DNA of 34,158 bases, taken from the NCBI GenBank assembly GCA_004114245.1, contig QZWS01000049.1, positions 1 through 34,158 of the forward strand, read 5' to 3'. The translations under genes and the position numbers were made by a program. The notes below the pieces were generated by a model, which saw nothing but the letters and a program-made list of their open reading frames with translations, was not told the origin of the DNA and made no database searches. The stretch is from Zoopage sp. CT-All (taxonomy: Eukaryota; Zoopagomycota; Zoopagomycetes; Zoopagales; Zoopagaceae). Each line of letters opens with the position of its first letter. Within the stretch, counting starts at the first letter, position 1. Positions 5,146-33,469 of this stretch are shown one piece after another.

Positions 5146-5177
5146 CAGTCAACACAAGGGATTTGCTGTGTTGACTG
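5146..5177. repeat. Perfect 11-bp inverted repeat (hairpin)
   Basis: Left arm 5146-5156 (CAGTCAACACA) is the exact reverse complement of right arm 5167-5177, with a 10-base loop. The right arm coincides with the left edge of homology shared by the two copies of the secreted-protein unit. The other copy (14041-14053) keeps only the right-arm sequence. It could be a cruciform or protein-binding site, or a scar at the edge of the duplicated unit. Confidence 0.8.
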
Positions 5178-6421
5178 CTGTAGCTTTTTCTCACACAGTT
5201 CTCGAACTCTGACACAGAACAGCACTTGACGACACACTTTCTCATGACGCCAAAGTCCTAACTCTTGTCGCCCTTGTCCTAGCATCATGCAGCTTTGTAT
5301 GCACCGTGCATGCATCCACAGCATTGCCAACCGGACCTGGCAAGTTGCATACCATGACGTCCAACCTGCCATCTAGCGGTCCTCACTTTGTCAGTGAAAT
5401 TGGTCCTCCCTCACCCATTGTCGACAAGAAGGCCCTAAAAATACTGCGGAAAGCCCTGCCAACATTCCAAGATAAAGACAAAATCATCGAGGCTGATATG
5501 GCTAGCAGGCTCCAAGACTTGGGATACTCATCAGCCCATCAACTTGATCTTGATCAGTTTGATTTGGAACCAAAGGAGTGGTTGTGGCTATTCTATCTTA
5601 TTCTGAAGCATGGAAACTGGATTACAAATGGTGGAGATCAGCTGATGGCACGGGCGAGCTCGCTCATTTTTGGCAGCCCCCTTGCACCACCTACACCAGT
5701 GCTGTTCTCATTGCTCAAATTCGAACCTATTAAGGCAATTGGCAAGGTTGTTACTCTCTTTGGATATAATGATTCTCACTTCAAACAAAATGTGTATCCG
5801 ACGATTGGATCCTTTATTTCGTTTCGACGGTATGCATTACAGCCCAGTCTTAGATGGTTGCAAACTCCTGATCCTTCGACGCAACTCCAAGTCCACGGTG
5901 GCATGCTCAATTATAGAGAATTATTTCACCTTAGCGAGATGTTTCACAAGCATTGGGATATTTCAAATGACATCTGTCTTCAACATTCAGCAAGGCTTCA
6001 GATGTTTTATAATGCGAATAATTATCATAGTATCAACATCCCCAGTCAGAATTATCACTGCCCAAATCCGGCAAGCAAACCAGTTCATAATATCTTGGCG
6101 TCATCATGGCATAAGATAAACCGGGAGGGAATGGACAGTATTATGCATCATTGTTCGCTTGATGGAAGTGAACCTAGCTGCATGATTGGGAATGCTGCAG
6201 AGCCGCTCAGAGCCACATTACGCAAGTCAAAAAAGGAAGACCAGGAGTCTTATCCAGAATTTAAAGCATGGCTGGATAGGTGTGAGAAGAAATATGCCCC
6301 TAGACATTTATCGATTTGACAAGATGGCGAGCCGAGTAGGAGCTGGTGTAGGAGGAAGGAATGAATGGTTTGATGGCTTCACACCAGCATTGATTTGGAG
6401 ATAATGTCTGCAGGGTGCACA
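5169..6421 (+). repeat. Duplicated secreted-protein unit, copy 1
   Basis: A block of about 1.25 kb matches the reverse complement of 12821-14053. Homology starts at TGTTGACTGCTGT (5169-5181), runs through the promoter, coding region and about 100 bases of 3' flank, and stops at GTGCACA (6415-6421). Sequence beyond both edges is unrelated. I see no terminal inverted repeats or transposase, so this is called a duplicated gene cassette rather than a transposon. Confidence 0.8.
5244..6319 (+). pseudogene. Secreted four-cysteine protein family, copy 1, signal peptide frameshifted
   Basis: Paralog of the gene at 12913-13989, roughly two-thirds identical in protein by eye. The ATG at 5244 matches the paralog's start, but one A is missing from the following A-run, so translation stops after five codons. 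The remaining reading frame is open for more than 330 residues and still encodes a decayed hydrophobic leader with no in-frame ATG. The first in-frame ATG is at 5354, which would give a 321-aa cytosolic product. The four mature cysteines (in ICLQH, YHCPNP, PSCMI and DRCEKK contexts) are kept. The family is not recognised. The copy may be a recent pseudogene, or a loss-of-secretion allele if the deletion is not an assembly error. Confidence 0.7.
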
Positions 6422-7098
6422 CTTTAACTGTATATGTACTAGTACAACATAATCAAAGGAAAGAAATATGGATGATAGTGAAAAGTCATAGATATGATTA
6501 ATTCTTAATCCTATAGTTGAATGGCATGCAGACTAAATAAGGTGAGTTTTATAAGGGATGTGATGGACATGAATGTGTGAAATATAATCAATGTTTAATT
6601 TACTTCCTTGTGTCACTGTGCCATATAGCACATAGCAAGGGATGGCTGTAGTGACTATTGCCTTTTCTCACCCACTTGGCAAAGTACACCATCTTGTCCC
6701 AAGGACTTCCCTCTCCTCTTACTTTGCCAGTATATTTTTTTCCTTGAGGGCCTGATGGCAGAATCAGTGCCTTATCAAGACATGCTGTTACTCCTGGAGG
6801 AGCAGCTAGCACCATATGACAAAAACCCTTCTCCTACTTCTATGCTAACAAACAGCAGGCAAGGATGGGGTCCTTGGGGTGTTACAACCCATTAATGTTG
6901 GGTTTTGTAAGATCACAGATGTGTTCAGGGTATAGAATTTCTGTATTTGTCAGGAGACAAGTTGTGCTCACTCTCCTTTTATACTAAGGATTACTAATGC
7001 TATGTTATCACTTTGAGGATGTCTTTGTTCTTCTGGGTTCTGTTGCATTCCAGGCTGTTGAGTCTGACGAAGCCGTCGCTCATATCACAACAGTAAGC
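6422..7098. other. AT-rich gene-poor spacer with an orphan ORF
   Basis: The stretch between the 3' flank of copy 1 and the end of RIC8 is AT-richer than neighbouring genes. On the minus strand, 6815-6600 is open for 71 codons (MVLAAPPGV...KKYTGKVRGEG...), with a composition that looks like a coding relic. It has no recognisable domain and no intact extension upstream. It may be a fragment of a mobile element. Nothing else is supported here. Confidence 0.35.
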
Positions 7099-8867
7099 TC
7101 ATTTATTCACATGTGGCGAACGCGAATGATCGCTCTCATCAACATCAGCATGATCCAGGTCCTCGAACTCGCCCATTCGAGCATGTCTCAGGCCAGGGTT
7201 ATGCACTTGGATTACGCCCGTTCGATTGAGGCGGTCGAAGAGTACAAACAGACGTTCAGCTTCGCTTTCTTTCTCCTCGTCCGTCATGTCAACAGCTTGC
7301 GTTTCCATGCTGCCGGAGACCGCTTGGCCAGTAATGGTATTGACTTGGCTAGTGATGGAGTGCTCTGATTGTTCGGGAATGTGGAATGCACCGCGAGAGA
7401 GAAGAAATCCAGCAGCATTGCCGAGGCCAATTTGACGGGACATCTCGTCGCCTGCCATGGCAGGTCAGCTACCCAGTGGTGTGCATTCACAAGGCTCACC
7501 GTCGCTGTTGCAAATTAGAAAGAATAGCTCCCCGACCAAGACTTTCGAGCGCTCCAGATGGACCGAAGTGAGCATGCGTATGAGCCGCGCCGTAAGACCC
7601 ACGCCGACATGGACTGGTTGTGACCGGTCCCTGTCTGCATTAGCCGAGGAGCTGCTGAGAAGAGCGGATTCGACCTACAAGTCACTGGGAAGCACCATTT
7701 CTTGGACAATGCTTTTGATATCGTCATCTTCTGCGAGCAACTTGAGTAGAGCAAGGATAGGCGCCAGACGCTCCTCAATCCAGTCTTTGCTGGCCAAGAG
7801 CTCCTTCTCCGTGTGATGGCCAAGGATGTGGTCAACACCTTGGACAAGGTTACGCACAACAAGATCTGGCTGTTGCGCAGGAATATAAAACGGACGGTAG
7901 CGCGCGATCGGAAATGACAATAGAGCGTGAACAGCATGTACAGCGGGCGTTGAAAGGCGACAGGCGAGGTCGTCAGGAGTGTTTGGCTGCCGAAGGAAGT
8001 GAATGATGGGTTCTGTCATACTACAAGATGCGTGCTGGGTGAAATCAAAAAAGGTGAAATACGGTGCAAAAGGCGCGCTGGAGTCACCGTGGATACGGGT
8101 CGCATGATGTACGAGGATGTTGTACAATAGCTTGAGCACTTCCATGTGAATCAAATCAATGCCAAATGACGATCCTGATTCTGTCGACGAAAGCGTCTAG
8201 CGCCAGGATACAAATGTGCATAGAAAGGACAACTTGATACCAACTTGAGAGCTTGAGTGAAAGCGGGATCGAGGGCAAGTCGATGCGCGAAATCGACATC
8301 GCTGACAGTAAGCAGAAAGAGGAGTCGCATCAGCAAGAATGCTCCATCACGGCCACCATCACCAGCCTATCATGCATCAGGATGCAAGAAATGGTGAGAT
8401 ATGAATGGACAATGAATCGTTGAGCAATAGCGTTGCAACCGAGATCACGAACAATAGCGCGCGAGTCGGCGTTGAGAATGAGAATGTTGACGAGACATTT
8501 GATCGCCTCAAGTTCAGCCTCACCCATGGGCGACATTGTCCTTGAGAATGCTGCCTGTGAGTAGATCACACTCACGCCCTAGTAGAACGATCTAGAGACT
8601 GAGACTGGCAGAATTACTGCTACCTGGCGGGTAAACAACGGCTCGCATCCAGCTGGGATGCGTGTAGCGACCTTGATAGCAGATAAAGCATCCAGCCTCA
8701 GATCTTCATATATGGCTTATATCAACCCGTTGAATTGGAGTGAAATTACTGGTCTCGGTCCAGGGACCACTGGAGTCGCCATTCGTACTGCTGGCAAGAA
8801 GATCAAGCAATTCCACGAGACAGGCCGTCTTCACGTCGGCGCCACCCTGCGCCATGTCTTTGCTCAT
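7099..8867 (-). CDS. RIC8: RIC8/synembryn, G-alpha chaperone and exchange factor
   Basis: Armadillo-type cytosolic chaperone and guanine-nucleotide exchange factor for heterotrimeric G-alpha subunits. Seven exons fit: 8867-8750, 8715-8624, 8554-8411, 8366-8241, 8196-7679, 7630-7500 and 7451-7099, giving 493 aa, close to the family length of about 530. Family landmarks read in order: EAIKCLVNIL, LMRLLFLLT, HMEVLKLLYNIL, GLTARLIRMLT, IGLGNAAGFLLSRG and a C-terminal MTDEEKESEAERLF block. All joins keep frame. The 34-nt first intron (8716-8749) is the weakest placement, but it is needed because the upstream frame meets TGA. An alternative ATG lies at 8855. The gene is divergent from the CPSF6-like gene, 117 bp away. 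Confidence 0.88.
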
Positions 8868-8984
8868 AAGTGCTCGGCTTCAAGCTAGTCCTCTTGAAGA
8901 CATACCAGAGACAAGGCGACGAAGCAGCTGATGAGCAGCCGCGGGGCCGTCGGGCATTCTTGGGCAGTCCAACTTCCCCCACAA
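8868..8984. promoter_or_regulatory. Shared divergent promoter region, RIC8 / CPSF6-like
   Basis: Only 117 bases separate the two inferred start codons, which point away from each other, so both promoters and 5' UTRs must lie here or overlap the genes. No TATA box or recognisable factor site is visible; the segment is GC-rich. Confidence 0.45.
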
Positions 8985-10286
8985 ATGGCGGACGCATTCG
9001 ATATCTACGACGACGCCGCATTCGACACTGTGCGCCGGATTGTCGCCCTGCTTGATCCGTTGATTGCTATTCGCTGTCTAGGTGGTGCCGGAGACGAATC
9101 AGCTGGCCTCGTCGCAGCCGGCGTCCGTGAATCCCGAGTCAAATCTGCCCACCGCGTCTCATGTATGCCGCTTTGCTTGCTTCTGTCGTCTTCTCTGTGC
9201 TTTCATTGTGATGCACTTGTATTTTATCCTTGATCATGGCCCTATCATTGTGACGCCTGCTGGAGTTGCGCACCCATTCCCTCCCGTGGTATTGGGCGTC
9301 TCTAACGCGCGTGTTGCAGACAGAGTATACTGGAAACGGACAAAAGCCTGCGTCTTTTGATGGTATCAACCAGTGCGGCTAGTTTATTCATCCTGAACCG
9401 CCCTGCTTTCTCCCACAGTGCACGAGCAGATTCGTGAACCAAACGCACCCTTCACACCCGACCCCGCTGCGACCCGCGCCATCATAATTTCCGAGCTGCA
9501 CTGGGTACGACTATGCGTCGCTTTTTTACAGCGAACCTGGCCTCGTGTAGTGGACATCGGATGAGGATTTGAGAAAGGCAGCGACCGCTGCAGGCGTCGA
9601 TCTGTCAAAATTGCTGGACATCTCATTCCAGGAGCTGAAACTTAACGGAAAGTCCCGTGGGTACGTGTGTAGATATCATGATGACCATACAACTGGTTTC
9701 AATAACACGATGCGTTTGCCGATGCGTTTATGTTGTCTAGTGTCGCGTACGTGGAGTTTGCGAATGAGGAAGCAGCACAGCGTCTCAAAGAGAAGTTCGA
9801 ACGAACGTATGCGATGCTCTATACCATGGCGTCGTTGACCACTGCGTGGGACTGTGTAGTCCGTTAGAAGGCGGGCAGATGCCACAGGTCGTCTACTCTG
9901 CTCCGTCTGGAAACCCATTCCGCATCATGCCGCGTGAAGGCGCTGCCCGGAAGCTTCCCTATGCTCCCCAACACCAGCCTGTTGCTCCGCTGTCATATGC
10001 TCCCCGTGGCGGGTATGCGGCTGGCGGCAGTGGATATCGCGGCGGAGCGCACACAAGTCAGGGTCGTGGCGGGTATGCTGGTTCGTCCGGATCGATTCCT
10101 ACGGGTCCACAAGCGATGTATGCCACCGCTGGTCAGCAACACGGGTATGCATATGCTGCAGCACCGCGCCCCGCGGCATATCAGCCACCGAGTATGACGC
10201 TGTCCCTTCCAATTGTCCCTCGCTTATCATGGCAACTAGATCGGCCATCTGCTGGTGAATCGAGTCCGAAGCGTCGCAAGTTTTAG
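8985..10286 (+). CDS. CPSF6/CFIm68-like RRM protein of pre-mRNA 3'-end processing
   Basis: Probable cleavage factor Im large-subunit relative, a nuclear RNA-binding protein acting in poly(A)-site choice. Seven exons fit: 8985-9029, 9082-9162, 9320-9362, 9419-9504, 9551-9660, 9741-9806 and 9860-10286, giving 285 aa. The N-terminus MADAFDIYDD resembles the acidic start of the family. The single RRM is rebuilt across three exons: SELHW|WTSDEDLRKA, then LNGKSRG|VAYVEF. This matches the diagnostic WWT-DEDL of CFIm68. The tail is Gly/Tyr/Pro-rich with RGG-like stretches and ends in SPKRRKF, a likely nuclear signal. The RRM joins are strong; exons 2-3 are inferred from frame. It converges on the tryptophan gene with 76 bases between stop codons. 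Confidence 0.82.
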
Positions 10287-10362
10287 GTCTGCGGGCAATA
10301 TACTTTACACAATACGAGCATCATGTGGTGTCAAAGGATATACTTCTACGCTGGCATTTTGC

Positions 10363-12690
10363 TCACACTGCTGCCTTGGCACGCAGCACAAACTCGGTGA
10401 TCAACGCAGCATCCTGGTCTCCCACCGCATTCTCCACGCCACTGCACACATCGACGGTCCACGGTTGAACTCGAGCGACGGCTTCGGCCACGTTGTAGAC
10501 ATTCAAACCACCTGCGAGTATGTACGGCGTGTCATTGGCGACAGCTTTGATGACGGACCAATCAAAAGTCATCCCTTGACCACCATGGTGCTTCGCCGTC
10601 GATGCGGCCTTGGCATTGGTAGCGCGTGCCGCATCCAAAAGGACAAAGCAGTGCAAGCCAGTCCGATGAATAGATTCAAACCGCTTGGCATCAATCTCAG
10701 CATCTCCCGTCATGTGAAGCGCGCGTATGACAGGCCGTGGCAGCCAGGCCGTGGCCTCTTCAGGCTCATCGCCGTGCAGCTGGATATAGTCCAAATTAAG
10801 AGAGACTGCTATGTCAGCAACGTCGCTGAGAGACTGGTCCTGAAATACACCGACAATGGCAGGTCGCGTCATCCGCTGGAGCGTGGCAAGGTGCGCATCA
10901 AACCAGGATCTTGGCGATGCCACAACAGCTGATGAGCCAGAGGCAACAGGTTCCTGCATGCGATCGGGCATGGAACGCACAGCATCGATGATTATCTTGG
11001 CCTGTTCATGGGAAACACGCCGACGAGAGCGGGGCGCAAAAATGAGCCCAATAAAATCAGCCCCGGCCATTGTAGCGGCTACAGCCGCGGATGGAGTGCG
11101 GACACCGCATATCTTTACCCTTGGATGCTTCCCAGGCTGTTTGCTTGGTGGCATAGCAATTGCAGGGGTCGGCGAGGACGACTGGCGACAAGCAGCCAAG
11201 GCTTTGACCATCTGCGCCGGATCCTCGGCACGCATCAGGGCCTCGCCAACCAGCACTGCGCGAGCGCCCACATCCGCGTATTGCTTTGCATCCTTTGCAC
11301 TCTGAATTCCGCTCAATGCACACAGAACAACATCATCGGGGACATTGGCTGCGAGTCGGGAGGTCGTGGTGGCATCAACGGTAAATGTGTGCAGATCACG
11401 GTTATTGACGCCAACGACACGGGTTCCAGCTGCAATGGCACGCTGCATCTCAATTTCGTTGTTGACCTCGATGATGGGTTCCATGTGAAGATGACGGGCG
11501 CGTTGCAGAAGGAATGCGAGCTGCGTGTCGGAGAGAATCGCCACGATGAGAAGCACGGTGTCGGCGCCATGAATCCGTGCCAGCAGGAGCTGATACTCGT
11601 CGACAACGAAATCCTTCATCAACACGGCCGGGCGCGGATAGATTCCGGCAAGCGCATCCCTTGCCTGTCTCAAGTCCTCCAGAGTACCGCGGAACCAATG
11701 CGGTTCGGTGAGAACGGATATCGCTGCGGCACCAGCCTCGGCATAGACCCTGGCCTGGACGCCTGCATTGACGTTGAGATTTATTGGGCCTCGGGAAGGC
11801 GAAGCACGCTTGATTTCCGCCATAACTGCTGTGGACGACTTATTGGCGGCAAGCAGAAGACGAGCGTGGAGGTTGATGGTGGGCGGCGCATAGGGGAGCA
11901 ACTTGATCAGATCCTCCATCGTCTGTCCCGGCATCCCGCGCAAGTCGGCGATGTCCTTGATACGCTGGTCCCGGATTTTGGTAAGAATGCTTGGCGCGGC
12001 GCCACCCGTGGATTCCTCGACAAGGGACTGGGCTAGACCACTCTGGCCTGAGCTACACCCAAACTCGGGCTGCTCGGCCCAGGTCCCACCATGCATGCGC
12101 AAAAAGTTCTCCAGCATCGAGACGCCACGAACACCACTTAGGATGCTCTCTGGATGGAACTGAACACCCTCGACACAAAGAGTCCGGTGCCTGATGCCCT
12201 GGATCACGCCAGACTCTGTGCGCGATGTCACAATCAAGGCCGGTGGCAGAGTGGCAGGATCCCCGGCGAGGGAATGATACCGGGTGACCACGACACCCTC
12301 TTTCGGCAGCCCGTGATACACGCCGCAACCGTCGTGGGCGAGCGCACTCGCCTTGCCGTGGACAATCTCCCCGGCGTGCCCCACGACGCCGCCAAACACC
12401 TCATACATGCACTGGTGGCCCAAACACACGCCCAGCACGGGAATCTTTCCAGAAAAATACTCGATGACGGCCTTTGAAATTCCGGCGTCGGTGGAGGGGT
12501 GTCCGGGGCCGGGGGAGATGACGATGTGGGTGGGAATGAGCGCACGGACGGCGTCGACGGTGGTCTGGTCGTTGCGCAGCACATGCACTGTGGTCGCGGG
12601 GAATGCGGCCAGGAATTGATATATGTTGAATGTAAAGGAGTCGTAGTTGTCGATGAGGACGACGACAGGGGCTGGCACCGATGGGGACAT
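10363..12690 (-). CDS. TRP1: Trifunctional tryptophan biosynthesis protein (GATase-IGPS-PRAI)
   Basis: Fungal fusion enzyme catalysing three steps of tryptophan synthesis: the glutamine amidotransferase half of anthranilate synthase, indole-3-glycerol-phosphate synthase and phosphoribosylanthranilate isomerase. It is one intronless frame of 775 aa from the ATG at 12690, which puts VVLIDNYDSF near residue 10 as in homologues. An in-frame ATG at 12756 is the alternative. GATase: GVCLGHQ with nucleophile Cys89, and the FHPES histidine. IGPS (about residues 245-505): AEIKRASPSRG, LMKDFVVDEYQ, GVNNRDL. PRAI (about 530-775): VKICGVR with catalytic Cys, FDW with the acid, and DVCSGVE where DVSSGVE is more usual. 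It needs a TrpE-type partner encoded elsewhere. The orthologue is called trpC in Aspergillus and trp-1 in Neurospora. Confidence 0.97.
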   Translation of the reverse strand: MSPSVPAPVVVLIDNYDSFTFNIYQFLAAFPATTVHVLRNDQTTVDAVRALIPTHIVISPGPGHPSTDAGISKAVIEYFSGKIPVLGVCLGHQCMYEVFGGVVGHAGEIVHGKASALAHDGCGVYHGLPKEGVVVTRYHSLAGDPATLPPALIVTSRTESGVIQGIRHRTLCVEGVQFHPESILSGVRGVSMLENFLRMHGGTWAEQPEFGCSSGQSGLAQSLVEESTGGAAPSILTKIRDQRIKDIADLRGMPGQTMEDLIKLLPYAPPTINLHARLLLAANKSSTAVMAEIKRASPSRGPINLNVNAGVQARVYAEAGAAAISVLTEPHWFRGTLEDLRQARDALAGIYPRPAVLMKDFVVDEYQLLLARIHGADTVLLIVAILSDTQLAFLLQRARHLHMEPIIEVNNEIEMQRAIAAGTRVVGVNNRDLHTFTVDATTTSRLAANVPDDVVLCALSGIQSAKDAKQYADVGARAVLVGEALMRAEDPAQMVKALAACRQSSSPTPAIAMPPSKQPGKHPRVKICGVRTPSAAVAATMAGADFIGLIFAPRSRRRVSHEQAKIIIDAVRSMPDRMQEPVASGSSAVVASPRSWFDAHLATLQRMTRPAIVGVFQDQSLSDVADIAVSLNLDYIQLHGDEPEEATAWLPRPVIRALHMTGDAEIDAKRFESIHRTGLHCFVLLDAARATNAKAASTAKHHGGQGMTFDWSVIKAVANDTPYILAGGLNVYNVAEAVARVQPWTVDVCSGVENAVGDQDAALITEFVLRAKAAV

Positions 12691-12820
12691 GGTCGAGCAG
12701 TTGACAGTGTGCAACGTGTTTGAAGCTGCAGGCTCCCTTGGTGCCCCATTTGCCATGCTCAAGGCACTGCTGGTAGCATCTCTGCTCTCTGCTATCTTGA
12801 TTGCTATGGTTGTGCACCCT

Positions 12821-14053
12821 GCAGACATTATCTCCAAATCAATGCTGGTATCAAGCCATCAAACCATTCATTCCTTCCTCCTACACCAGCTCCTACTCAG
12901 CTCGCCATCTGGTCAAACCGAAAAATATTCAGGGGCATATTTCTTCTCACACCTATCCAGCCATGCTTTAAATTTTGAATAGAACCCGTCCTCCATGCCT
13001 CCCTTTTCTGCCTCACGTAATGCGGCTCTGAGCGGCTCTGCAGCATCCTCAATCACGCAGCTACGTTCACTTCCATCAAGCGAATAGTGTTGCATAATAT
13101 TCATCACTCCCTTCCAGTTTACTCTATGCTCTGATGATGCCGAGATATTATAAACTGGTTCGCTTGTCGGATTTGGGCAGTGATACTTCCGACTGGGGAT
13201 GTAGATCTTATGATAATTATTCGCATTATAAAACATCTGAAGCCTCGCTGAATGTTGAAGACAGATGTCATTTGAAATATCCAAATGCTTGTGAAACATC
13301 TCGAAAAGGTCAAATAATTCCATATAATTGAGCATGCCGCCGTGGATTTGGAGTCGCAACGAGGGATCAGGGGACTGCGTCCATCCAAGTTTGGGTTGCA
13401 GTGCATTCCGTCGAAACATGATAAAGGAATGAATCACCGAATGCACGTAACGATTTTTGTCATCACCATCAGGTCTAGGGAGAGAAACAATTTTGCCGAT
13501 TGCCTTAATGGGTTCGAATTTGAGCAACGAGAACAGCATTGGTGCACCGGCGCTGCGGGAAATGAACGTGCTCGCCCATGCCTTCCGCCGATCCTCACGG
13601 CTTGTAACCCGCTCCCCATGCTTCGGAATAAGATATAATAGCCGCAGCCACTCCTTTGGTTTCAAATCAAACTGATCAAGACCAAGTTGGTGGTCTGACG
13701 AGTATCCCAAGTCTTGGAGCTGGACAACCACAGCAGCCTCGGTGAGTCCGCCGATTTCACGTCGGGATGTTGACAGGGCTTTCCGCAGTATTTTTAGAGC
13801 TTCCTCGTCGGCGATGGGTGAGGGAGGACTAATTTCATTGTCAAAGTGGGGACTGCTGGATGGCAGGTTGGATGCCATGCTATGCAACTTGCCAGGTCCG
13901 GTTGGCAATGCTGTGGACGCATGCACGGTGCATACAAAGCTGCATGATGCTAGGACAAGGGCAGCAAGAGTTAGGGCTTTTGGTGTCATGAGAAAGTGTG
14001 TCGTCAAGTGCAGGAGAAGCGAGCTGGTGAAAAAAAACCAACAGCAGTCAACA
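12821..14053 (-). repeat. Duplicated secreted-protein unit, copy 2 (inverted)
   Basis: Reverse-complement homologue of 5169-6421. The right edge (14041-14053, ACAGCAGTCAACA) stops 7 bases before the EF-hand start codon. The left edge (TGTGCAC at 12821) lies 65-130 bases from the two possible tryptophan-gene start codons. The unit thus occupies essentially the whole spacer between two divergent genes. About 100 bases of 3' flank differ from copy 1 at only about four positions. Confidence 0.8.
12913..13989 (-). CDS. Secreted four-cysteine protein of unknown function, copy 2
   Basis: Single-exon gene of 358 aa. The ATG at 13989 opens a classic signal peptide (MTPKALTLAALVLASC..., cleavage probably after VHA near residue 25). 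The mature part has exactly four cysteines, all conserved in copy 1, which suggests two disulfides. No transmembrane segment follows. The best conserved blocks lie around LFSLLKFEPIKAIGKI, HGGMLNY, DISNDICLQHSARLQMF and AWLDRCEKKYAP. The domain is not recognised. The segment around residues 75-90 and the loop after IGKI differ strongly between copies. By context (fungal, secreted, duplicated, diverging mature part) an effector or host/substrate-interaction role is possible, but this is inference only. Confidence 0.8.
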   Translation of the reverse strand: MTPKALTLAALVLASCSFVCTVHASTALPTGPGKLHSMASNLPSSSPHFDNEISPPSPIADEEALKILRKALSTSRREIGGLTEAAVVVQLQDLGYSSDHQLGLDQFDLKPKEWLRLLYLIPKHGERVTSREDRRKAWASTFISRSAGAPMLFSLLKFEPIKAIGKIVSLPRPDGDDKNRYVHSVIHSFIMFRRNALQPKLGWTQSPDPSLRLQIHGGMLNYMELFDLFEMFHKHLDISNDICLQHSARLQMFYNANNYHKIYIPSRKYHCPNPTSEPVYNISASSEHRVNWKGVMNIMQHYSLDGSERSCVIEDAAEPLRAALREAEKGGMEDGFYSKFKAWLDRCEKKYAPEYFSV

Positions 14054-14060
14054 ATCCGCC

Positions 14061-14577
14061 ATGACTCGCGTCCACCTTCTCGACGCCGACGGCGAATTCA
14101 CGCCGCTGTTCGAATGCGTGCTTTGCAGTATATTTGAAAAATTTGACGTGGACGGGGACGGTGTTTGGAACGAGGCGGAGCTCGACGCGTACGCTCGCTT
14201 CACCAACGGCGCTCCCGTAAGTCGCTGTCATTGGCATACTGTGCTGCTAGCCAGACGGATTTAATGTGCGGCCTAGTTTGACGACGAGGTCAAGGAAGAG
14301 ATGCGGGATAATTTGGAGGTGAACGAGAAGGGCTGGCTAGAGCTGGGCGGCTTTATGCAGATGTACCACCTGCAGACAGAGGGCGACGAGAACGAGACGT
14401 GGAATGATCTGGCCAAGCATGGATACGATGATCAGTTGGATCAGGTGAGTGTGCGTAAGAAATAGATACATTTTCAGTCGGGGATATGAGTTGGATGCAT
14501 AGCCCTCCCGAAGACAGAGGCTCCGCCTTACTGCAGCCGTCGTCACGTGGACTGCTGCTGAGAAGCATGTCGCTTGA
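14061..14577 (+). CDS. Small EF-hand calcium-binding protein
   Basis: Three exons (14061-14216, 14277-14444, 14503-14577) give 132 aa. One canonical EF-hand loop is visible at residues 29-40 (DVDGDGVWNEAE) with acidic groups at positions 1, 3, 5 and 12. The second half (FDDEVKEEM, GWLELGGFMQMYHLQT, ETWNDLAKHGY) resembles the paired helical part of EF-hand/Miro-like calcium-binding proteins but has no intact loop. Exons 1 and 2 are strong. Exon 3 depends on the acceptor at 14502 and runs into the opposite-strand SPC25 coding end. The start codon is only 7 bases from the duplicated secreted-protein unit, so its native 5' region may have been replaced. Confidence 0.7.
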
Positions 14578-32370: not shown

Positions 32371-33162
32371 CTAATGGCCTGCATTGTTGCGCAGAACAAA
32401 CCGCTTGATGGTGCGACTGTTCAGGGCCAGCGGCACAGTCTCGCTTGCCTCCACCTGGACAGACACTGCCTTGAGCATACGGCGTCGGGCATTTATAAGC
32501 CAGTTGCTGAGTTGGTGCGGCAGCAGGTCTGTGTCGGCCAGCATTCTCCGCTTCTGTTCCTCGGAGGGGTAGGGATAGGCGGTGTTGTTGCGAATCCACT
32601 GCCGCAGATACTCCACTGCCGATTCTGGAAGCCTTGACCGCTGGGCATGACTACGAGCTCTACGGACTGGCCCCGTGTCAGAAGAGGCACTTCTTTTCCT
32701 GGGCGACGCGCAGGTGGCTGGCTCCAGCGGAGTCGTGATGATTGCTGCCGTTTGTGGGTGACATGCTGCAGGGATCTCGATTGGCGTGTGGAAGTGCGCC
32801 CTCCAGCGAGCCAGGCCAGATGCAACGACGGCTTTGATGTGATTGAGCGCAGCATCCGACGATTTCGACGTGGCCAGTACGTGGCAGCGGCGTGGAGACG
32901 CTGTTGGGGATAAAACGCGACCGCTTCTCAACAGCTTGGCCGTGTCTTGGATATTCGCGCCATTCTGGTCGGCAATGATCCAATGGCCGTGGCAAGCAAA
33001 GCAATTCTCCTTAGTATGACTGCCATGGATCAGAACAACCGGAGAAAATATTCGACCGGATTTCGCGCCCACTGTGGCAGCAGCCGGTGTGCTGCCATTC
33101 ACGGCTCCTGGAGAGGCAGAGTCTCCCGGAGTTGCACATGCATTTTGCAATGCGAACAACAT
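32371..33162 (-). CDS. TALE-class homeobox transcription factor
   Basis: DNA-binding protein with one homeodomain near the C-terminus (about residues 170-229 counted from ATG 33162). It reads SRLPESAVEYLRQWI, then AYPYPSEEQKRRML, then NWLINARRRM. The three extra residues between helices 1 and 2 (PYP) and the N-W-x-I-N-A-R recognition helix define the TALE group. The preceding region is Pro/Ser/Ala-rich and unrecognised. The frame stays open upstream to 33381, including ATGs, but that part is unlike protein sequence and contains the direct repeats at 33280-33340, so the start at 33162 (263 aa) is preferred. TALE factors in fungi include mating and developmental regulators; the role here is unknown. 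Confidence 0.85.
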   Translation of the reverse strand: MLFALQNACATPGDSASPGAVNGSTPAAATVGAKSGRIFSPVVLIHGSHTKENCFACHGHWIIADQNGANIQDTAKLLRSGRVLSPTASPRRCHVLATSKSSDAALNHIKAVVASGLARWRAHFHTPIEIPAACHPQTAAIITTPLEPATCASPRKRSASSDTGPVRRARSHAQRSRLPESAVEYLRQWIRNNTAYPYPSEEQKRRMLADTDLLPHQLSNWLINARRRMLKAVSVQVEASETVPLALNSRTIKRFVLRNNAGH

Positions 33163-33279
33163 GATTGTTGTTGCCGATAGAATAGATAACGTGTATGAGA
33201 GCGACGCGACTTGATATGAGCGAGGATGCAGGTGATGGGAACGGCTGTCAAAATACGCTTGACGTGTTCTGTCGTGAGA

Positions 33280-33340
33280 AAATTGATCACTCCCACCACT
33301 GTTCCGTTCGCAAATTGATCTCTCTCCCACCACTGTCCCG
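33280..33340. repeat. Tandem pair of about 28-bp repeats upstream of the homeobox gene
   Basis: AAATTGATC-CTCCCACCACTGT-CCG occurs at 33280-33306 and again at 33312-33340, with a 2-base insertion in the second copy. The pair lies about 120-180 bases upstream of the preferred homeobox start. The TTGATC core resembles the TGAT half-sites bound by TALE proteins, so autoregulation is possible but unproved. Confidence 0.6.
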
Positions 33341-33469
33341 CTTTCCATTCGACAAGCAATTTTCGCTGCTATAAATGACATTCGTATATTTATATCAATG
33401 CTGTGACTGCAAAAGGAAATGATCGATGCTATACAGAGATAGCCACGGCTTTTGGATGGATGAGCGGCG

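Follow-up and report, generated by a model that had tools for sequence, protein, structure and literature searches.

The window, a contig of 34,158 nucleotides (QZWS01000049.1, called C297 here), carries two inverted copies of a cassette of about 1.25 kb, each with a gene of a protein family whose residues change no more slowly than silent DNA positions. Diversifying selection on the mature protein is well supported. With moderate confidence, we assign the genes to a mostly helical, secreted-looking and lineage-restricted family in a Zoopagales-like fungus and take this family to be under diversifying selection, most likely through contact with a changing partner outside the fungus. An earlier note on this DNA had described the pair and had offered diversifying selection, gene conversion at the ends or a functional 3' element as reasons why the flank is better conserved than the coding sequence. 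The two copies and their parts are as follows.

5169..6421, plus strand: copy 1 cassette (5' leader, coding frame and 3' flank), from alignment with 14053-12811 and genome search
5244..5353, plus strand: copy 1 signal-peptide region, from alignment and the stop-to-stop frame; one base fewer than in copy 2 puts the rest out of frame with the ATG at 5244
5354..6319, plus strand: copy 1 open reading frame (ORF) from the first in-frame ATG, 321 amino acids, without signal peptide, five cysteines (ORF list)
6317..6421, plus strand: copy 1 stop codon with the conserved 3' flank; copy 2 differs at 4 of the 105 positions
12811..14053, minus strand: copy 2 cassette, the putative moved copy, from alignment, genome search and comparison of 3' homology
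12913..13989, minus strand: copy 2 gene, intact, 358 amino acids, secreted-looking (ORF list, family alignment)
12811..12915, minus strand: copy 2 stop codon with the conserved 3' flank; copy 1 differs at 4 of the 105 positions

The inverted pair was borne out by alignment, by genome search and by the repeat listing, which also contains the inverted arms of both copies. The copies aligned end to end, with 1050 of 1273 columns identical (82.5% with gap columns, 85.9% without). The boundaries given earlier at 5169, 6421 and 14053 stand; the remaining end, placed at 12821, lies 10 bases further out, as the homology reaches 12811. Three estimates made by eye agree with the counts: about four differences in the flank of about 105 bases (four from the stop codon onward), few differences in the signal-peptide region (2 synonymous and 2 nonsynonymous in 27 aligned codons), and about one-third of residues changed (protein identity 68%, with a proportion of nonsynonymous differences, pN, of about 0.3 in the worst 30-codon blocks). 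The statement that both copies keep exactly four cysteines does not hold: mature copy 2 has four (C243, C271, C311 and C347) and mature copy 1 has five, the core shared by the family being four.

To measure selection, we compared the coding sequences of the two copies, which differ at 176 bases (74, 57 and 45 at codon positions 1, 2 and 3). Maximum likelihood (ML) gave an omega (dN/dS) of 1.82 with kappa 5.5 (likelihood ratio test, LRT, 9.06 against omega = 1); the bootstrap 95% range was 1.33-2.93, and none of 100 resamples fell at or below 1. Site models were fitted to the four closest copies, namely copy 1, copy 2 and two paralogues on another contig, C351a and C351b. Under M0, omega was 1.25 (LRT 4.3 against 1), and M2a was favoured over M1a with an LRT of 40.4, giving an omega of 5.3 to about 18% of codons. 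This LRT was 36.0 when columns up to 3 from a gap were taken out and 27.8 when the limit was 6, and M2a was still favoured under another pairing of the four copies (LRT 59.3). In 100 simulations with the neutral model as fitted, the LRT never reached 40.4 (maximum 7.41). Thirteen codons had a posterior above 0.9, 11 of them at copy 2 residues 172-187, 289-296 and 327-334 and the others at 54 and 229. Two-ratio fits made separately put the copy 1 branch at omega 2.16 (LRT 6.2 against 1) and the copy 2 branch at 2.33 (LRT 3.2); with the branches fitted together, the values were 1.89 for copy 1, 1.69 for copy 2 and 1.09 elsewhere. Between the two copies, codons that vary in eight other members had omega 2.29 (LRT 10.3, 198 codons), and codons conserved in those members had omega 1.23 (LRT 0.4, 154 codons). 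Along the gene, conserved and heavily changed 30-codon blocks stand side by side. The first of the three proposals in the earlier note, diversifying selection, is thus upheld by the pairwise fit, the site models and the simulations.

Several results weigh against our interpretation. Nei-Gojobori (NG86) counting gave an omega of only 1.09 for the two copies. With kappa fixed at 1, 2 and 3, the ML estimate was 1.20, 1.41 and 1.56 (LRT 0.8, 3.0 and 5.2), and omega at kappa 1 and 2 is not significantly above 1; the same is true of the copy 2 branch taken alone. Other pairs, from ML fits repeated with several starting values, ranged from 0.66 to 1.37, with 1.03 for C351a-C351b, 0.97 for C281a-C281b, 1.00 for C209-C293 and 0.66 for C275-C352, the last below 1 (LRT 6.2). 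For the signal peptide, omega was 0.58 over 25 codons, an unreliable value as kappa ran away in the fit. Nor are the proteins small and cysteine-rich, having 349-407 amino acids and 4-6 cysteines after the signal peptide; these are common, not obligatory, traits of effectors. Finally, the ATG of copy 1 at 5244, the counterpart of the copy 2 start, is followed directly by a one-base deletion that the earlier note had not caught, and a stop is reached after five codons. The open frame of copy 1 comprises 355 codons from 5252, and its first in-frame ATG, at 5354, lies behind the signal peptide. Copy 1 may be recently damaged, newly leaderless or affected by a sequence error near a run of A. As its sequence reads, copy 1 may yield no secreted product.

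The out-of-frame start of copy 1 could also mean relaxed constraint, with copy 1 a young pseudogene and the family loosely constrained near omega 1. We consider this unlikely, even though several pairs do have omega near 1 and two further members, on C228 (L025) and C269 (L012), carry in-frame stops; the latter matches only in part and is close to repeats. Because of these two members, the family seems to lose as well as gain members. A drifting copy tends to an omega of 1, yet the copy 1 branch is at 2.16 with an LRT of 6.2. The 355 codons of copy 1 are still open, and its net in-frame length differences from copy 2 are whole codons. Conserved and diverging blocks coexist, M1a, which already includes a neutral class, loses to M2a, and the neutral simulations do not reproduce the observed LRT.

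Synonymous differences vary along the gene, with a proportion (pS) of 0.09 and 0.07 at the ends and 0.40 in one central block. Such a profile might arise if uneven gene conversion had homogenised the ends while the middle diverged without selection for change. Conversion would lower silent and replacement differences together, not raise dN over dS. In addition, informative sites favour one tree by 97 against 16 and 9, and the minority sites are scattered as judged by eye. The conversion at the ends proposed earlier is thus not needed, though pS does vary, and we regard it as a very improbable explanation of the pattern.

The third proposal, a functional 3' element, stands in part. We performed a genome search with the 3' flank and found four copies, all downstream of family members, these being the four closest members. 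Over a fixed stretch of 83-86 bases, the flank had fewer differences than synonymous sites in five of the six pairwise comparisons among these copies (p < 0.05; values between 0.0007 and 0.041), p being 0.28 for the C351 pair; as the six comparisons have sequences in common, they are not independent of one another. Exact matches to the 15-mer ATTGATTTGGAGATA lie at the four flank copies and once within a different reading frame on C165, the last taken as chance, and with one mismatch the 15-mer occurs in three further places. The copy 1 flank folds better than most shuffles (z -2.2), and no such excess was found for copy 2 (z -0.16), C351a (0.79) or C351b (-0.26). The fold of copy 2 resembles that of copy 1, C351a keeps part of it and C351b folds otherwise. 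We discarded a hairpin as the explanation of flank conservation since it is not kept in the C351 copies, and we discarded a mobile or widely shared element since the only four copies found all lie beside family members. Since the search placed the flank beside the four closest members only, and since these copies have no hairpin in common, a constrained 3' untranslated region (UTR) is the probable reading; it would stay similar because it lies outside the selection for change that acts on the protein.

To determine the extent of the family, we performed iterated searches of the genome, which gave at least 12 loci on 9 contigs, ten of them beyond the two copies and absent from the earlier note. 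Two weak matches, on C268 (E 0.97) and C259 (E 0.079), were left out of this count. An intact single-exon ORF of 349-407 codons is present in 9 of the 12 loci. By simple rules for signal peptides (Met, hydrophobic stretch and cleavage-site residues), 9 of the 12 open with an in-frame Met and a hydrophobic segment, followed by a plausible cleavage site with A or S at -1 and a small residue at -3; this N-terminus would direct entry into the endoplasmic reticulum and secretion. Four cysteines are invariant in all 10 aligned proteins and would form two disulfides.

The family was described earlier as unrecognised, and this holds for the libraries that we searched. None of the 10 full-length members scanned had a Pfam match at its cut-off, the sub-threshold matches other than the F-box treated below being DsrE (E 0.018), BBS7 (0.015) and phage gp53 (0.061). 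NCBIfam and PADLOC gave no match, and sequence matches in the PDB were no better than E 0.27 and 0.84. A protein-database search with copy 2 gave no match at E ≤ 10 among 4297 scored candidates, and one with the 10-row family alignment gave none at E ≤ 10 among the 7996 candidates sharing most words, searches that could miss very distant relatives. The predicted structure is mostly helical, with a predicted local distance difference test (pLDDT) value of 73.4 and a predicted template modelling score (pTM) of 0.70; Foldseek returned no match at E ≤ 0.001 for either of two family models.

The best Pfam match of fragments taken after the signal peptide was the F-box (PF00646), with E 0.011 for C209 (16.0 bits) and 0.049 for C352 (14.0 bits), against a curated cut-off of 20.5 bits. 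The full-length C209 protein matched at E 0.12, and the C275 and C293 fragments and the other full-length members had no F-box match in Pfam. As to the three-helix F-box fold, residues 21-70 of the C209-first model had block pLDDT values of 38-57, which is low confidence, and a profile of the segment against the PDB found only two non-F-box chains (E 0.32 and 0.34). In general, a signal peptide is not expected ahead of an F-box. We left membership as weak, the matches being below the curated cut-off and absent from other members; the resemblance in two distant members hints at an origin without establishing membership. A speculative and rather doubtful extension is that a Zoopagales-specific secreted superfamily, with a new, mostly helical four-cysteine fold, arose when an ancestral F-box protein acquired a signal peptide, its mature surface now diversifying against targets in prey or host. 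If true, this would offer a first molecular handle on how fungi that attack amoebae, nematodes and other fungi act on their victims.

The window belongs to an assembly of 8.6 Mb in 419 contigs, which we placed using TRP1, the neighbour of copy 2.

10363..12690, minus strand: TRP1 (GATase-IGPS-PRAI), from Pfam, homologues and a tree, with the start taken as the ATG at 12690

A longer TRP1 ORF begins at 12828, within the copy 2 flank. Among the matches listed, the closest to this TRP1 was an ENA protein (57% identity); of those with a species name, the closest were from Thamnocephalis sphaerospora (55%) and Syncephalis plumigaleata (51%). We then built a tree from the window and 35 sequences chosen by hand from 120 listed matches (36 in all). 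The window grouped, at support 100/99, with eight rows: Piptocephalis, Thamnocephalis, two of Syncephalis and four others. We therefore treat the organism as belonging in or close to Zoopagales, a placement drawn from this one gene. Elsewhere in the window, at 32371-33381, there is a homeobox KN (TALE-type) gene (Pfam E 7.7e-15).

Under our interpretation, the mature protein would have a binding role and would contact a changing partner outside the fungus, such as prey, host or a competing microbe. The copies are most likely effector-like proteins in an arms race, their secretion, target and activity being putative. Selection for change could instead come from self/non-self recognition, with the proteins acting within or between fungi in cell recognition, incompatibility, mating or the killing of competitors. 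Secreted-looking, multicopy, diversifying families are generally known to serve recognition too; members matched no known recognition domain at Pfam cut-offs, and we hold such a role to be improbable.

To ask how the pair arose, we compared both copies with the C351 paralogues beyond the cassette. Two further features are involved.

6422..6458, plus strand: continued ancestral 3' flank, common to both C351 paralogues and not seen beyond copy 2 (shuffles)
14061..14216, plus strand: first exon of an EF-hand-like gene, read from the sequence (Pfam EF-hand_6 E 1.8e-4, below the curated cut-off)

For the roughly 37 bases past 6421, none of 500 shuffles matched the score against either C351 paralogue, whereas for the sequence beyond copy 2, 103 and 353 of 500 shuffles were as good. 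Upstream of the cassette, neither copy resembles the C351 copies above shuffles. As copy 2 is without the longer 3' homology that copy 1 has, we infer from the 3' side that copy 2 is the moved copy. The copied segment, made up of the whole gene with 64 bp of leader ahead of it and about 100 bp of 3' flank behind, would have been inserted about 6.4 kb away in the opposite orientation, in the gap between TRP1 and the EF-hand-like gene. The edges of copy 2 lie 8 positions from the EF-hand-like ATG (14061) and about 120 bases from the TRP1 start (12690), and the copy occupies most of this gap. With about 70 bases between the start codons of copy 2 and this neighbour, the two genes would share a very short divergent promoter.

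Repeats lie close to copy 1. An 11-base inverted repeat (arms 5146-5156 and 5167-5177) spans the 5' edge of its cassette. A repeat of about 200 bases at 6896-7094, SINE- or MITE-like in size (short interspersed nuclear element; miniature inverted-repeat transposable element), has at least 44 further matches, some of them pieces, at 78-93% identity across the genome, a count from 40 scored candidates out of 101. One match lies within 1 kb of the broken C269 member and one on the member-bearing C275 contig. The segment 6617-6838 has a 90% identical copy on C217 (261-481). Since copies have moved and inverted, one of them into a narrow gap, and a repeat with dozens of matches lies nearby, the cassette could be read as a mobile-element gene or remnant and not as a host family. 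This is highly unlikely: there are four 3' ends and 12 genes against at least 44 further matches of the repeat, all 10 members scanned are without a transposase, reverse transcriptase or integrase match in Pfam, no target-site duplication was seen by eye, and selection acts on the protein. Terminal repeats were likewise not seen by eye, and the repeat listing gives no direct repeat of at least 30 bases, though short duplications could escape both.

Among the titles and abstract openings of the open-access papers that our searches listed, none describes such a family in Zoopagales. A small, delimited family with an arms-race signature provides concrete proteins to express and test, and it would add an early-diverging fungus to the examples of genes with UTRs steadier than the coding sequence. 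Snake venom phospholipase A2 isozymes, reportedly described by Ogawa in 1992 and cited in the work on sea anemone toxins, are said to have a similar relation of UTR to coding sequence. In the sections drawn on here, the cDNAs of sea anemone BDS toxins have UTRs steadier than the coding sequence, KA/KS above 1 and related secreted products (PMC3853724). The likeness of our family to these systems lies in related products that are secreted there and secreted-looking here, UTRs more conserved than coding sequence and KA/KS above 1, as far as those sections describe them. BDS toxins are animal toxins, whereas the Zoopagales-like proteins are of about 360 amino acids and helical and are not known to act as toxins, and the two are likened by description only. 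Also alike are secreted, fast-evolving effectors of fungi, such as the Sporisorium reilianum candidate effectors under positive selection (PMC5811872) and the Taphrina effector superfamilies (PMC7036362), again as given in the parts of those papers used here. These belong to plant pathogens, whereas the Zoopagales-like family is larger and cysteine-poor, and this likeness too is one of description.

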